Shown here: one piece after another, positions 3,885 through 13,330 of the stretch
Layout: each line of letters starts with the position of its first letter
Position numbering within the stretch: position 1 is the first letter of the stretch
Source: Anaerolineales bacterium
Lineage (GTDB): Bacteria > Chloroflexota > Anaerolineae > Anaerolineales > E44-bin32
Assembly: GCA_011772595.1 (NCBI GenBank)
Contig: WVZH01000332.1
Span: 1-13,330, forward strand
DNA length: 13,330 nucleotides
Reading direction: 5' to 3'
Program-made: the position numbers and the translations under genes
The notes under the pieces: generated by a model
Told to the model about the DNA's origin: nothing
Databases searched by the model: none
The model's input: the letters and a program-made list of their open reading frames with translations, nothing else

Positions 3885-4447
3885 TGGCAGCCCTGATGGA
3901 TACCGTTGGTTTTATTGAAAGACGCCCTCAGAACCAATATCGATTCTGAAATCAGTTTCTCGGGAAGGTCTAAACTACGCAAAAGATTACGTTCATGTTG
4001 GTAACGATCAAAGCACGAAAACCAGCATACTATAGCATGCCAAGGAAATGGGAACAATAAGAAGAAATTACCTATATGCACCAGGTCTCAACATAAGGTA
4101 GGAAAAAAATCTTCCAACCAACCGTTTTAAAGAAGAGATCTATGCCTCAGGGGAAGAGAACTGGCTTCATCATTCTCACATTATAGGGATCTTGGACAGT
4201 GTGCACACGGTGATTATCCTCACACCCCACCGCAGAAACTGTAAGTCGAGGGCTTGGTGCTTAGAGGTTGGTTCTTTCCATGTTCCCTCTAACTTTGAAT
4301 GCACGCATCGACGCTTACCAATAGGATATCCCTAGGGTAACTTCACAACCATGGACGGAATCGGCCACAGCGCGAAGGTTTGCAGATAATCCATCTCGAC
4401 GAGGGGCTGCGATCAGTCGCCAGGTTTCCGTCAACATTGCTCGATGA
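3885..4447. other. Long intergenic stretch, no supported gene
   Basis: About 560 bases upstream of the winged-helix/MinD gene. Short frames exist on both strands, but none has a convincing start or a recognisable domain. A perfect 10-base palindrome (GTGTGCACAC) lies at 4199-4208. No tRNA, no strong promoter and no terminator were seen; TTGGTT/TAAAAC with a 17-base spacer on the minus strand near 3907-3935 is too weak to call. Confidence 0.5.
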
Positions 4448-4801
4448 GTAACCCTATTCGAGATCGCGGCAGTACCCAGATCAATGCCACCTACATATGC
4501 TTTGTGTGTGCTAAGCCAACCTTTTCGGGCGCCGGAATATGTACCTGAAGGTACGACGTTCACGCCGGTCTACGATAGCGTCACCAGCACGTAGCCTAAT
4601 CTCCCGATTGAGGATTTGTGGGTCTTGGGGGGATTGAACGCTTCGGGGAACGTCAGCAACACACCCCGGCTGGCGATTTGGCAAGGCGACCAAAACTGTA
4701 CCCGGGATGACATTTCGGACAATAGGGGCACGCTTGACTTCATCACCCACGACCCTGCCAGCGACGTCTTGACAGACCAGCACATCTACTGCGAGCGCTG
4801 A
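4448..4801 (+). pseudogene. Possible decayed plus-strand coding remnant
   Basis: One plus-strand frame is open from 4448 to the TGA at 4799-4801 apart from a TAG at 4592-4594, and much of it reads like real protein: 'PEYVPEGTTFTPVYDSVTST', stop, 'PNLPIEDLWVLGGLNASGN', then 'LAIWQGDQN' and 'LDFITHDPASDVLTDQHIYC'. There is no start codon with a ribosome site, and upstream this frame degrades into stops. CAG to TAG would explain the internal stop. A hairpin terminator lies 31 bases after the final stop, where a plus-strand gene would need one. I do not recognise the family. A competing 148-codon minus-strand frame over the same bases runs through the terminator and reads worse. Low certainty. 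Confidence 0.28.
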
Positions 4802-4829
4802 CACAACGGACCCTGTGCTTCTTGCATGC

Positions 4830-4862
4830 AAAAACCGGCAAACCATGGCTTGCCGGTTATTA
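4830..4862. terminator. Hairpin terminator between convergent units
   Basis: Perfect 9-bp stem AACCGGCAA (4833-4841) / TTGCCGGTT (4850-4858) with an 8-base loop holding CCATGG. On the minus strand the stem runs into five T (4834-4830), a standard intrinsic terminator for the fur/iron permease operon that ends at 4962. On the plus strand it is followed by ATTATT, a weaker tail that could serve the remnant ending at 4801. Confidence 0.75.
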
Positions 4863-4961
4863 TTCGGATTCCAAGACCGGGACTCAAAACTTGGGCCTGC
4901 GGATGAATAGTCGGCTGACTTGTCTACTTTCCCTTGAGATCTCGCACACGGAACCACACTC

Positions 4962-6530: not shown

Positions 6531-6573
6531 ACACGTTAGATGCCTCCATGTTCAAGATCGGGATGCGATTTTA

Positions 6574-6610
6574 TGTTATACTATCCTTCGAAGATAATAT
6601 CGGGTATAAC
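6574..6610 (+). promoter_or_regulatory. Extended -10 promoter inside a long inverted repeat
   Basis: TGTTATACT (6574-6582) is an extended -10 element (TGn plus TATACT) about 80 bases before the TTG start of the cytochrome lipoprotein; no good -35 is seen. It sits in an interrupted palindrome: GTTATAC (6575-6581) is exactly complementary to GTATAAC (6604-6610), with TTCGAA near the centre flanked by further partly paired bases. An activator or repressor could bind here. Confidence 0.42.
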
Positions 6611-6662
6611 AGGGCCAATTAGTCTAGAAATTACCGTCCAAAAACGAAATAGGAGTAAAGCA

Positions 6663-7307
6663 TTGGAGAAAAGATTATCTTTGCGTAGATATTTGCTTAC
6701 TGTATTCATTCTCGGAGGGCTCCTGCTAGCAGCTTGCAGCACGCCTCAGTCGACACCGATAGCGAACGACTCCCCAGCAGAGGTTGTCGTTGAGCATGGG
6801 GAGTCCAACGAAGAGGCGGAACATTCCGAGGGAGCTGTCAAAGAGAGTGAGCACACTGAGGGGGAAGAACACGAAGACGAATATGCCAAGGACGAAGAGC
6901 ATGAGGACGAACATTCTGAGGGCGAAGAGCATGAAGACGAGGGGATTGATCTCGAAGAGCACAATCACGCCGAGATTCCCCACGACTTCGAAGGCTTGGA
7001 AAATCCCTTCGGTGAGGATCCGGAAGCCATCGCCGCTGGTGCCGAGCTCTTCGCAATGACATGCGCCGTTTGTCATGGGGAAGGTGGAGAGGGTGACGGC
7101 CCTTCCGCTGCCGGCCTAGATCCCAAGCCCGCCTCACTTGCCGATGCTGACATGATGGCAGATCTCTCCGACGCCTATCTCTTCTGGCGTATCACGGAAG
7201 GCGGCATGATGGAGCCCTTCAACTCTTCCATGCCTCCCTGGGGCGAATCGCTCTCTGAAGAGCAGCGCTGGCAGTTGGTAAGCTACATTCGCACACTTTC
7301 AGAGTGA
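6663..7307 (+). CDS. Lipoprotein cytochrome c with His/Glu/Asp-rich tandem repeat
   Basis: A predicted 214-residue membrane-anchored, extracytoplasmic c-type cytochrome. I place the start at TTG 6663: AGGAG stands 7 bases before it and the product then begins MEKRLSLRRYLLTVFILGG, a proper lipoprotein signal with lipobox LAAC (Cys25). The longer frame from 6540 adds 41 residues crossing the promoter and has no ribosome site. Residues about 44-109 are extremely rich in Glu, His and Asp, including four 10-residue units beginning EEH. Residues about 115-214 form a class I cytochrome c domain: haem-binding CAVCH (134-138), 'GEGGEGDGPSAAGL', and the probable axial Met in SSMPPWG (Met190). Family knowledge supports electron transfer outside the membrane; metal binding by the acidic/His region is inference. 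Placement divergent from fur and the iron permease suggests a redox or metal-capturing partner. A strong terminator follows. Confidence 0.86.
   Translation: MEKRLSLRRYLLTVFILGGLLLAACSTPQSTPIANDSPAEVVVEHGESNEEAEHSEGAVKESEHTEGEEHEDEYAKDEEHEDEHSEGEEHEDEGIDLEEHNHAEIPHDFEGLENPFGEDPEAIAAGAELFAMTCAVCHGEGGEGDGPSAAGLDPKPASLADADMMADLSDAYLFWRITEGGMMEPFNSSMPPWGESLSEEQRWQLVSYIRTLSE
6864..6983 (+). repeat. 30-bp coding tandem repeat (EEHEDE units)
   Basis: Four consecutive 30-base units encode EEHEDEYAKD, EEHEDEHSEG, EEHEDEGIDL and EEHNHAEIPH. The first six residues are constant in three units; the fourth is diverged. Related EHSEG and EHTEG blocks lie just upstream. Codons vary (GAA/GAG, CAC/CAT), so the array is not very recent. 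Confidence 0.75.
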
Positions 7308-7319
7308 TACTCTGTATAC

Positions 7320-7362
7320 AAAAAAGGGCGTCCTATAGATACCGGACGCCCTTTTTTTTTTT
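7320..7362. terminator. Strong bidirectional intrinsic terminator
   Basis: Perfect 8-bp stem GGGCGTCC (7326-7333) / GGACGCCC (7344-7351), 10-base loop, six A before and eleven T after (7352-7362). It ends the cytochrome transcript on the plus strand; on the minus strand it is followed by six T and would end the copper-type operon coming from the right. Confidence 0.92.
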
Positions 7363-7560: not shown

Positions 7561-8064
7561 TTATCTACGGTCGTACACCCAGGTTCGGCCATCTTTATCG
7601 AGTGCAAAAACCTCGTATGGTCCCCCTTGCGAACTACCCATTCCTGGCGATCCAGGGGGCATCCCGGGCACTACGAGTCCAACAAGATCGGGGGTCTCGC
7701 GCAACAGTTTCTCGATCAGGTCGGCCGGAACGTGCCCCTCGATGATGTATCCATCCACCAAGGCCGTATGACACGATGCAAATTCGTCTGCCACACCAAG
7801 ATCTGCTTTCAGATCTCGAAGCTCCTGATCCCCCAAATCAACGAGATCGACCACGAATCCGTTCTTTTGTAGGTGAACCACCCACTGAGAGCAGCACCCT
7901 CAAGTCGGGCTGCGGTAGACTTTGATGTTATAGCTGGACGGGTTATCAGCCAACGGCACCGCCGAGTTGTTTCTAGTCGGAGTAATCAGCAATACAATTG
8001 CTAAGGCCATAGCCACAACAATGGCGCCAGCTGCTATAAAGATCCAGAATCGATTGGTTGACAT
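7561..8064 (-). CDS. DUF411 metal-binding protein with in-frame TGA at first Cys of CGCC (candidate selenoprotein)
   Basis: Read through one TGA, this is a complete 167-residue DUF411 protein. The start is ATG 8064 with GGAG 7 bases upstream. Residues 5-27 form a membrane anchor or signal. Then 'NIKVYRSPT' leads to codon 55, TGA (7902-7900), and 'GCCSQWVVHLQKNGF'; family members have Cys at that codon, giving the CGCC metal-binding motif near the N-terminus. The rest is standard: 'LGVADEFASCHTALVDGY', 'IEGHVPADLIEKLL', 'VPGMPPGSPGM', 'YEVFALDKDGRTWVY'. There is no frameshift and no other stop. DUF411 proteins usually accompany copper or other heavy-metal resistance genes, as here next to a CopB-type ATPase. 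TGA may encode selenocysteine (a hairpin follows) or be a TGC-to-TGA nonsense mutation. If it is a plain stop, only residues 62-167 could be made, from a GTG at 7881. Family call certain; decoding uncertain. Confidence 0.82.
7869..7885 (-). promoter_or_regulatory. Candidate bacterial SECIS hairpin after the TGA
   Basis: In the mRNA, 14 bases after the UGA a stem GUGGGUG / CACCUAC (seven pairs, one G-U) closes a three-base GUU loop, so the loop begins 21 bases after UGA. As I recall the bacterial SECIS consensus, the loop lies about 16-37 bases downstream and has a G in its first two positions; both hold. Seven-pair hairpins also occur by chance, so this is supportive only. Confidence 0.35.
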
Positions 8065-8190
8065 ATCTAGCTCCACTCAACGAAATAATCTGAAGTAAGG
8101 CTCATAACGATTTCCGCAATTTGACACCAAATTCCTCGTCCCATTTGGCAAGAACGAAGAGAGCCCTCCACTCAAGTTTGAGAAATCTCG

Positions 8191-9221
8191 CTACAAGACG
8201 GACGTTGCCCTCCTCAAGGTTTGTGCACTGATCGCCACCAAGACCGTGCTGAGAGACATAAAAAGCGCGCCCAGGGCTGGTGAGAGCAGGATTCCGAATG
8301 GTGCCAAAAGACCCGCGGCGAGTGGAATGGCAACAACGTTGTACCCCATAGCCCATATCAGGTTCTCGACCATCCTGCGGATCTGTCAGCCAAAACCTGC
8401 GTTCTCGATTTACTCTGCTGTGCCTGCTCGACTAGTCTCATGACGCCTGCTAGCGCCGTATCCTCACCAATTGCATTCACGCGCACTCTCAAACTACCGT
8501 CACGACTGATCGGCCCCGCAATCACCTCGTCGCCGGGATTCTTCAGAACGGGTCGGGATTCACCTGTGATCATCGATTCGTTGACTTTAGATTCACCTTC
8601 GACCACTTCTCCATCCATAGGGATGCTCCCACCCGGGCGAACAAGAACCAAGTCTTCCATCTGTAGACTCTCAACAGACACTTCCTCAGTCTTCCCGGTG
8701 GACAGTAATCGCTCGGCGGTGTCGGGTAAAAGCTTGGCCAACGCTTGCAACGCGCCGGAGGCCTGGCGGACGCTGGCATTTCCAACCAATGGCCAAGAAG
8801 CATGACATCAATCAGGGTCACCAATTCACAGAAGAAGCCCTCTCCCAAATCAGCAAGAAGGGCGGTCCAGCTATAAGAAGAAGACCACACTGATTGCCAA
8901 CGAGATCAAAGTCATCATGCCAGGCTGGCGGCTGCGGATTTCCGGAACAGCCATACGCAGAAAGGGTACTCCACCGATCAAAAAGATCACCAGGGATAGA
9001 ACGGGTGTAACCCAATGGCTGCCTGGGAACACAGGCATACTGAAACCTAACCACCCTTGAACCATCTCGCTGTAAAGTAACACCGGAATCGAAAGGGCAA
9101 GGCAAATCCAGAATCGATCCCGAAACATCTTCTCGTGCCTGCTATGGTCGACACGATGTCCCTGGCTGGTCTGCTTGTGATTCGTGTGATCAGCTTCTTG
9201 TGAAGCGTGACTGTTGTTCAC
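8191..9221 (-). pseudogene. Broken CopB-like copper P-type ATPase (frameshifts plus internal deletion)
   Basis: Pieces of a P1B-type heavy-metal ATPase lie in order. Frame 1 (9221 to about 8880): a His-rich N-terminus, which continues upstream as further His codons without a proper start, then '[21 protein letters not shown]' and two helices. Frame 2 (about 8880-8777): '[19 protein letters not shown]', '[13 protein letters not shown]'. Frame 1 again (about 8776-8380): '[19 protein letters not shown]' and the actuator motif TGES in '[11 protein letters not shown]', ending at 'QVLADRSA'. Frame 3 (about 8385-8191): the C-terminal helices '[20 protein letters not shown]' to 'AISAQTLRR'. The metal-binding CPx helix, the DKTGT phosphorylation site and the nucleotide domain, some 350 residues, are absent between the last two pieces. 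It cannot be an active pump. Its place downstream of a two-component system and two SHOCT genes fits a copper-export operon. Confidence 0.9.
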
Positions 9222-11857: not shown

Positions 11858-12303
11858 TCTCTTATCCTGATTCTATGGAATTACAACCACTCATTCGTTG
11901 AGTCAAGAACTATTTTACACAGGAATACAGGTGGGTTGGGCACCTTTGGGCGACCTGCGTTCAACGCTGCCAAACGTGCTCTGGTGATTCTCATACAAGT
12001 CCACAGACACTTAATCCGCGTCCTATGTTTATTCCTTGCGACTCCGGTATCATGACAACTTACGCATTATTTTAGGCAAATCACCCTTCCCCCATTCCAC
12101 CCAAATACGCTGCCCTATTGAAGTCTTTACCAGTTTCTTTCCACTCACTCACTTTAAATGAATCACTATCTGGCGTATTGGGCGAAGCCTCGAATTACAG
12201 TGCAGCCGACCTGACCCAGTTGGATACATTGTAGATGGATTTTGAGGCCGATCGACACAGCACAGGCATACAATAGCCATGAGAAGGGTGATGGAGATGG
12301 GTG
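11858..12303. other. Intergenic stretch between divergent units
   Basis: About 445 bases with no supported gene. One plus-strand frame (about 12076-12234) gives some 50 protein-like residues ('SLTLNESLSGVLGEASNYSA') between stops without a start, possibly a remnant. TACAAT at 12269-12274 could be a -10 for the hydrolase, but TTGAGG is 21 bases upstream, too far. GGAG at 12293-12296 is the hydrolase ribosome site. Confidence 0.45.
11880..11906 (-). promoter_or_regulatory. Possible promoter of the two-component operon
   Basis: On the minus strand TTGACT (11906-11901) and TGTAAT (11885-11880) are each one base from consensus, but the spacer is only 15 bases, shorter than usual. It stands 23 bases before the regulator GTG start. 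Confidence 0.33.
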
Positions 12304-13330
12304 ATGAAGAAGACCCTTATCGGAACGACGCTGTTGGTGCTGCTTCTCAGCGCATGCGGGTCACGTGTCCGCATTGAGCAGAAAGAAGGACAAACTATCG
12401 GCGGTGTGGATGTGCGGGTGGAGGAGATCCAATTTCGTTCCGGCCAGTTCAAGTTGATCGGGGATCTGCGAATGCCTGAAGGAGATGGTCCACATCCAGC
12501 GATCATCATGGTTCCCGGCGATGGAGCAGCCACACGCAACGGCTCCGTTCCATTCCGTCCGTTGATCGAGATCTTCCTGCGCAACGGGTACGCTGTTTTT
12601 TCGTGGGACAAACCGGGCAGCGGAGAATCGACCGGGGAATTCAGCGACGTGCTCACACAACGCGCCGCTATCCTGGTTGATGGAATTAAGGTCCTGACTG
12701 AACATGAGTTCATCGACCCGGGTCGCATCGGTCTGTAGGGGATCAGCCAGGCCGGGTGGGTCATGCCCTTGGCGATCGAGCAATCGGAGAATGTCGCCTT
12801 CATGATCGTCGTCAGTGGCGGCGCGGAGGACAGCATCGAACAGATGGCCTATCAGGTCGGGCAGAAGGTAGCCTGTGCCGGTGGCCTGGCGGAGCAGGCG
12901 GAACTTGTGGAACTGAATTGGTCGCAGATGGCTAAAGCTACCAGTTAAAACGAATACCGCGAGGCCATGGAAGTCCTTTTGGGAATTTGGAGTGTCAGGG
13001 CTCACACAGGTTTAGAGATGACTGAGGAAAAAGACTGGAAACCTTGGTCTCGGGAGTGGGACGCATTCATCGACCCGATGGAGGTCATTGAACACACCAC
13101 CAAACCAATACTCGTTCTCTTTGGTGAGTTGGACAAGAACATCGATCCGGTCCAGGGGGCGGAGGGCTATGAGGCTGCGTTGCGAAAAGCTGGTAACCAG
13201 GATTACCGGATCGTGGTAATCCCCGGCGTAGCACACACATTAACGCCGGCAAAGACGGGTTGTCTCACTGAGATGTGGGAAACGAGTTATGCGCCCGAGT
13301 TCCTGGAAACCATGGAGACGTGGCTTCAAG
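12304..13330 (+). pseudogene. Alpha/beta hydrolase lipoprotein with two in-frame stops, runs off window
   Basis: One frame from ATG 12304 (GGAG 7 bases upstream) reads through to the window edge and encodes a serine-hydrolase-fold lipoprotein: signal with lipobox LSAC, oxyanion region 'HPAIIMVPGDGAATRNG', 'FSWDKPGSGESTGEFSD', nucleophile elbow GISQAG, acid-site region 'KPILVLFGELDKNIDP', and catalytic His region 'VVIPGVAHTLTP'. The triad Ser, Asp and His are all present. Two stops interrupt it: TAG at 12736-12738, just before the elbow where homologs often have Trp (TGG to TAG), and TAA at 12946-12948 in 'MAKATS'-stop-'NEYREAM'. There are no frameshifts. Without readthrough only a 144-residue stump lacking the catalytic Ser is made. 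The family is S33/dienelactone-hydrolase-like; the substrate is unknown. It may be a recent pseudogene. Confidence 0.85.

Follow-up and report, generated by a model that had tools for sequence, protein, structure and literature searches.

The gene at positions 7561 to 8064 on the reverse strand of the window, i.e., of the whole stretch of 13,330 nucleotides analysed here, most likely specifies a copper protein of the CopG type (DUF411) that has a membrane anchor or signal at its N-terminus and carries selenocysteine (Sec) at UGA codon 55. We put the probability of this reading at roughly 85%. It is supported by a break that relatives share at the same place, by a second TGA deduced for one pair of them (P0003 and P0241), by the near-single clade formed by the broken proteins, and by the conservation of the part downstream of the break; from these observations we infer the identity of the residue. 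The recoding of one UGA at a position where relatives carry a metal-binding Cys is the established pattern of selenocysteine genes.

The first-pass annotation of this DNA had described a gene with its own start and ribosome site and with a single in-frame stop, a TGA at the first Cys of the CGCC motif. Both parts of this description are confirmed. With the TGA taken as a residue, the interval is read as a single frame that contains exactly one in-frame TGA, in the context SPT-TGA-GCC, and no other break; the TGA is codon 55 (7902 to 7900). The corresponding motif pattern matches once in the window versus 0 of 200 shuffles. The start is an ATG with a GGAG 6 nt upstream, as judged by eye. All features are collected in Table 1.

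Table 1. Positions of the candidate selenoprotein gene, its signals and adjoining features in the window (strand given as + or -; a point stands for no strand).
Feature	Position	Strand	Remarks
DUF411/CopG-like gene	7561..8064	-	167 residues with UGA read; N-terminal hydrophobic helix, then thioredoxin-like domain
In-frame TGA, candidate selenocysteine codon	7900..7902	-	codon 55, first Cys of the CxCC motif
GGAG, ribosome-site-like	8071..8074	-	6 nt upstream of the ATG at 8064, by eye
Frame remaining after the stop	7564..7881	-	106 residues, start GTG at 7881
SECIS-like stem-loop	7855..7899	-	45 nt right after the UGA; apical loop GUU at +22 to +24 (7878-7876)
Upper hairpin of the SECIS-like element	7869..7885	-	17 nt, 14 nt after the UGA
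Heavy-metal (possibly copper) P-type ATPase remains	8191..9221	-	upstream of the DUF411 gene; decayed
Inverted repeat flanked by A and T runs	7320..7362	.	by eye; the consensus scan did not list it

The family assignment is clear. The Pfam domain DUF411 (PF04214) is found at an E-value of 4.7e-25, with 87.5 bits versus a cut-off of 27, and the top sequence match of known structure is CopG (6WIS, E 5.7e-28), which aligns to residues 47-162 and thus spans the TGA. Opposite the TGA, 6WIS has the first Cys of its CGCC. For the read-through protein, AlphaFold2 gives a model with a mean pLDDT of 86.8 and with values of 53-75 over the first 40 residues, where a modelled helix of low confidence (residues 6-26) resembles a membrane anchor or signal. 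In the thioredoxin-like domain of this model, residue 55 follows the first strand (46-51) and precedes the first helix (58-67). A Foldseek search with the model returned 6wis_A as the top match (E 2e-14, TM 0.89 by target length). According to the portions of PMC7558416 available, CopG-like periplasmic proteins hold a tetranuclear copper cluster by means of CxCC and two adjacent Met residues, and they have been proposed to oxidise Cu(I) and to hand the copper on. As in the CopG/DUF411 proteins (PF04214; PDB 6WIS, 6WJE), the CHT, EGHVP and PGMPxGSPGM blocks are conserved in the window protein; unlike them, it has a TGA codon for the first Cys of the copper-binding CxCC, while the other two members of the triad, Cys57 and Cys58, are present. 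The window protein keeps M135 and M142, as do all 116 broken forms and all 119 Cys forms; these two are probably the ligand Met residues of 6WIS.

Relatives of the gene have been deposited in a cut form that matches the frame 7564-7881 on the reverse strand. We collected them with a profile built from the window's post-motif part together with P0098, P0035 and P0002, all of them cut forms. The search took lengths of about 58-185 residues, such that longer full-length relatives were outside its range; 8000 candidates, the upper limit of the search, were scored, all of them below E 1e-3, and the best 120 were listed. Among these best 120, 117 begin after the motif, including P0002, which is the window's own; the remaining three are P0003, P0205 (rank 88, with CGCC) and P0230, a fragment without a start. 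No Cys at the motif occurs in the first 87 of these 120 matches. The best 120 matches listed for a full-length query consist of 116 proteins with CxCC (113 with CGCC and 3 others), P0003, and three cut forms. The Cys and the broken sets originate from these two kinds of separate search, each with its best 120, so that the resulting 118 versus 119 proteins do not represent a frequency; the Cys set was moreover chosen by a pattern requiring C.CC, and its 119 of 119 at the motif hold by construction. Before counting we dropped P0002, P0240 and P0241 (window copies or fragments) as well as P0230 (the fragment without a start). Across the shared part, the broken relatives among the matches listed are 50-73% identical to the window protein, and all three of them that carry an organism name derive from Anaerolineales or Anaerolineaceae MAGs. 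Judged by this kinship, the window probably belongs to the same group. Among P0176-P0234 there are also numerous cut DUF411 proteins with different sequence types (VGHLQANGFKVQKK and others), one cluster having 175 members; the broken form may reach beyond the Anaerolineales.

Where the break lies in the relatives can be narrowed down from their starts. When the 116 cut relatives are aligned to the window protein, their first residue falls at 59 (3 proteins), 62 (101), 63 (3) or 71-77 (9), and never before 59. Val, a possible GTG start, occupies residue 49 in 108 of the 119 Cys forms and residue 47 in 56 of them. Since a stop further upstream would leave the starts at 47 and 49 available, the stop of the cut relatives should fall at about residues 50-58. 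As DNA, the TGA is known from the window alone; in relatives other than P0003 and P0241 it corresponds to a break bracketed to the motif in protein records.

One pair of records comes closer to the codon itself. P0003, at 53% identity the nearest full-length relative among the matches listed, has a Trp at the TGA position. P0241 comes from a longer contig; its residues 1-52 are the same as those of P0003, and it stops exactly at SPT. A codon that is called Trp in one record and stop in the other fits TGA, as it is read under codes 4 and 11, respectively, and the protein records thus suggest a TGA here; a TGG in one strain together with a stop in the other is less likely. P0241 is the one relative in which the exact stop position is visible: a search for N-terminal fragments gave two matches among three candidates, namely P0241 and the window's own. 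The latter fragment is recorded on two contigs, and it occurs beyond our 13,330-base window, because the longest contig carrying it has 16,228 bases. The last W of P0003 is probably a genuine residue, being common to other relatives. According to the first-pass annotation, its proposal would fall if close relatives all carried TGC and the window alone had TGA. The protein records point the opposite way, as the nearest relatives are broken there too.

The two forms separate on a maximum-likelihood tree built from the post-motif sequence (237 rows and 106 columns), in which 119 of the 232 inner branches are unresolved. The label broken or Cys changes 3 times on the tree versus 79 times with shuffled labels, and one branch with an SH-aLRT support of 93, which is under the tool's mark of 95, parts 117 of 118 broken from 118 of 119 Cys forms. 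The two exceptions are P0006, which has Cys but groups with the broken forms, and P0235, which is broken but groups with the Cys forms; they possibly reflect exchanges between Sec and Cys, or else poor resolution. On this topology, the broken forms constitute essentially one clade. The residues C98, T100, EGHVP at 109-113, M135, P140, G141 and M142 occur without exception in the 116 broken forms. For the window protein and P0003, conservation can be followed across the stop: they agree at 8 of 11 positions just before the UGA, at 6 of 6 from the UGA to the next start, and at 60 of 106 after that start, against 6 of 31 in the anchor region.

Directly after the UGA, the transcript may form a SECIS-like hairpin, which we scored by geometry rules of the kind that applies to bacterial SECIS elements. 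It reaches -11.0 kcal/mol with the loop starting at +22, and 8 of 400 synonymous shuffles equal it. Under the same scoring, the E. coli formate dehydrogenase genes fdhF, fdnG and fdoG obtain -8.7, -7.4 and -7.4, with loops at +20. The hairpin is the best fold at 44, 48 and 54 nt, while another fold wins at 36, 40 and 60 nt. A value of -11.0 or better is also reached by 30 of 600 codons of neighbouring genes and by 3 of 20 Cys-type DUF411 sites. If the UGA is included in the fold, it is paired into a different lower stem, and 9 of 200 shuffles do equally well. The hairpin is hence weak evidence: consistent with a Sec reading, not distinctive for it. Neither a tRNA-Sec nor any other tRNA was detected in the 13 kb window by ARAGORN and Rfam. 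The Anaerolineales are part of the Chloroflexota, and Sec-containing formate dehydrogenases have been reported in marine Chloroflexi subphylum I, grouped with the Anaerolineae, in the available text of PMC5736913.

Several other explanations of the TGA have to be weighed. The first-pass annotation had treated nonsense decay as a real alternative, i.e., that the gene has decayed as its neighbours have and acquired the TGA by chance, and had pointed to a broken adjacent ATPase and a nearby broken hydrolase. These lesions are real: the adjoining ATPase is frame-shifted and gutted, and the hydrolase frame holds a TAG and a TAA. Despite two decayed neighbours, decay of the DUF411 gene itself seems very unlikely to us. 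There is only one lesion, and it hits precisely the functional Cys; relatives that form a clade are broken at this place too, at the identities given above and with conserved downstream residues, and a decayed gene would not remain conserved for that long. Slightly less improbable, yet still far from likely, is initiation downstream of the stop. The functional product would then be the 106-residue protein from the GTG, with the upstream part as a relic or leader, which agrees with the deposition of at least 116 relatives in the cut form. Such a protein would dispense with the strand 46-51, the start of the helix 58-67 (both as modelled) and the CxCC site. Moreover, to the eye, the GGAG lies ahead of the upstream ATG and no GGAG-like site precedes the GTG, which is the first start after the stop. 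The window protein and P0003, the one comparable pair, are conserved before the UGA as well as in the six residues between the UGA and the GTG. With conservation flanking the stop on both sides, neither decay nor downstream initiation explains this pair.

If a suppressor tRNA or an altered genetic code placed Cys or Trp at the UGA, this would agree with the deposition of P0003 with Trp at this position and with the Cys found there in nearly all full-length relatives among the matches listed. Besides the DUF411 gene, 6 of 9 intact genes of the window end in TGA; TGA is therefore an ordinary stop here, a general recoding does not take place, and we reject genetic code 4 (TGA as Trp). Furthermore, decoding of UGA at a single redox Cys is just what a Sec system does, and we consider the Cys or Trp reading to be as improbable as decay. 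Least probable of all is that the breaks in the relatives are gene-calling artefacts of intact CGCC genes. The relatives are indeed known from protein records alone. Gene calling nevertheless ran through CxCC in 116 of the best 120 matches to the full-length query, the cut forms group together on the tree, and P0241 displays a real stop at the site.

Selenocysteine at codon 55 would replace the CxCC site of the window protein by UxCC. A SelB-type factor would recognise the hairpin after the UGA and insert Sec, and the protein would be located outside the cytoplasm. Copper would be bound through Sec55, Cys57, Cys58 and the conserved Met residues, with Sec55, judged from the alignment to 6WIS, as one ligand of the copper cluster. 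Compared with Cys, Sec is expected to bind Cu(I) no less well and to undergo oxidation and reduction more readily. A more far-reaching proposal is that of a large unreported CopG clade, whose named members are Anaerolineales, in which Sec, as a direct ligand, turns the Cys-bridged tetranuclear copper cluster of a copper-resistance protein into a mixed selenolate-thiolate one; we see the odds for and against it as even.

The candidate status of DUF411 as a new selenoprotein family, suggested by the first-pass annotation, agrees with the literature consulted. DUF411/CopG is absent from the inventory of 119 selenoprotein families in Table 1 of a 2026 review (PMC13188914), and the accessible main text of this review on prokaryotic selenoproteins contains none of the terms DUF411, PF04214, COG3019 and CopG. 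Likewise, the available portions of PMC12013277, PMC9312934, PMC2398784, PMC5424206, PMC7558416 and PMC5736913 hold no report of DUF411 as a selenoprotein. The pairing of DUF411 with selenocysteine was not found in the literature searched; Deng et al. 2026, who describe candidate selenoproteins from groundwater genomes according to the accessible part of PMC13188914, may include DUF411. An NCBIfam scan assigned no family to P0001 or P0003. With the thioredoxin-fold bacterial selenoproteins (UxxC, UGC, UxC), the protein has in common a candidate Sec that takes the place of a conserved Cys behind the first strand, abundant Cys homologues, and a possible hairpin after the UGA; it differs in that the nearest motifs listed, UGC and UxC, belong to other families (PMC13188914). 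The presence of Sec in a metal-handling protein would also be shared with the CopZ-like 2Fe-2S protein, the E1-E2 cation ATPase and the SO_0444 Cu/Zn efflux transporter listed there, but these copper-linked selenoproteins are other families with domain identifiers other than PF04214 (PMC13188914). If our reading is true, DUF411 represents a new selenoprotein family that is apparently cut short in more than 100 deposited proteins, and selenium is tied to copper homeostasis in uncultured bacteria. It would also permit a direct test of Sec as a ligand in a copper cluster for which the structure of the Cys form has been solved.

Further sequence collections were surveyed for the TGA form. In viral contigs, the motif pattern occurred in 106 stretches, and no TGA-form DUF411 came to light among them. 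A script screen of these 106 kept 8 that carry CHT, stay open for more than 60 codons or reach the end of the stretch, and none of the 8 is a DUF411 by eye. Searching the viral contigs with P0001 alone gave no relative. By alignment, the viral collection contains 13 DUF411 loci, of which 11 reach the motif, all 11 with CGCC. Among phages, two weak DUF411 matches were found. Plasmid searches returned 3433 and 3449 records with DUF411 matches; the 10 and 20 best rows were listed, the best identity among these matches is below 60%, and both loci examined, from records without annotation, have CGCC. Out of 57 genomes of Coleofasciculus and relatives, 7 have DUF411, each with CGCC and none with stops. 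A search for selB in one genome of the Coleofasciculus group and two plasmids gave no match above the cut-off, which has no bearing on the window.

In the neighbourhood of the gene, the P-type ATPase persists as pieces in different frames, and by eye the core that should follow the actuator domain and precede the last membrane helices is gone. These remains fit a copper-handling locus. The alpha/beta hydrolase-like frame (12301-13329, forward strand) has its TAG at 12736 and its TAA at 12946 and runs off the window end. A stretch of about 1 kb (3885-4960) is without a recognisable gene, and the three frames tested there gave no Pfam match. The strong inverted repeat of Table 1 lies between the DUF411 gene and the cytochrome c gene, which converge on it, and may end transcription of both. 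Ahead of its haem domain, the cytochrome c gene (6540-7307) encodes an extended segment with many His, Glu and Asp residues, possibly a metal-binding stretch.
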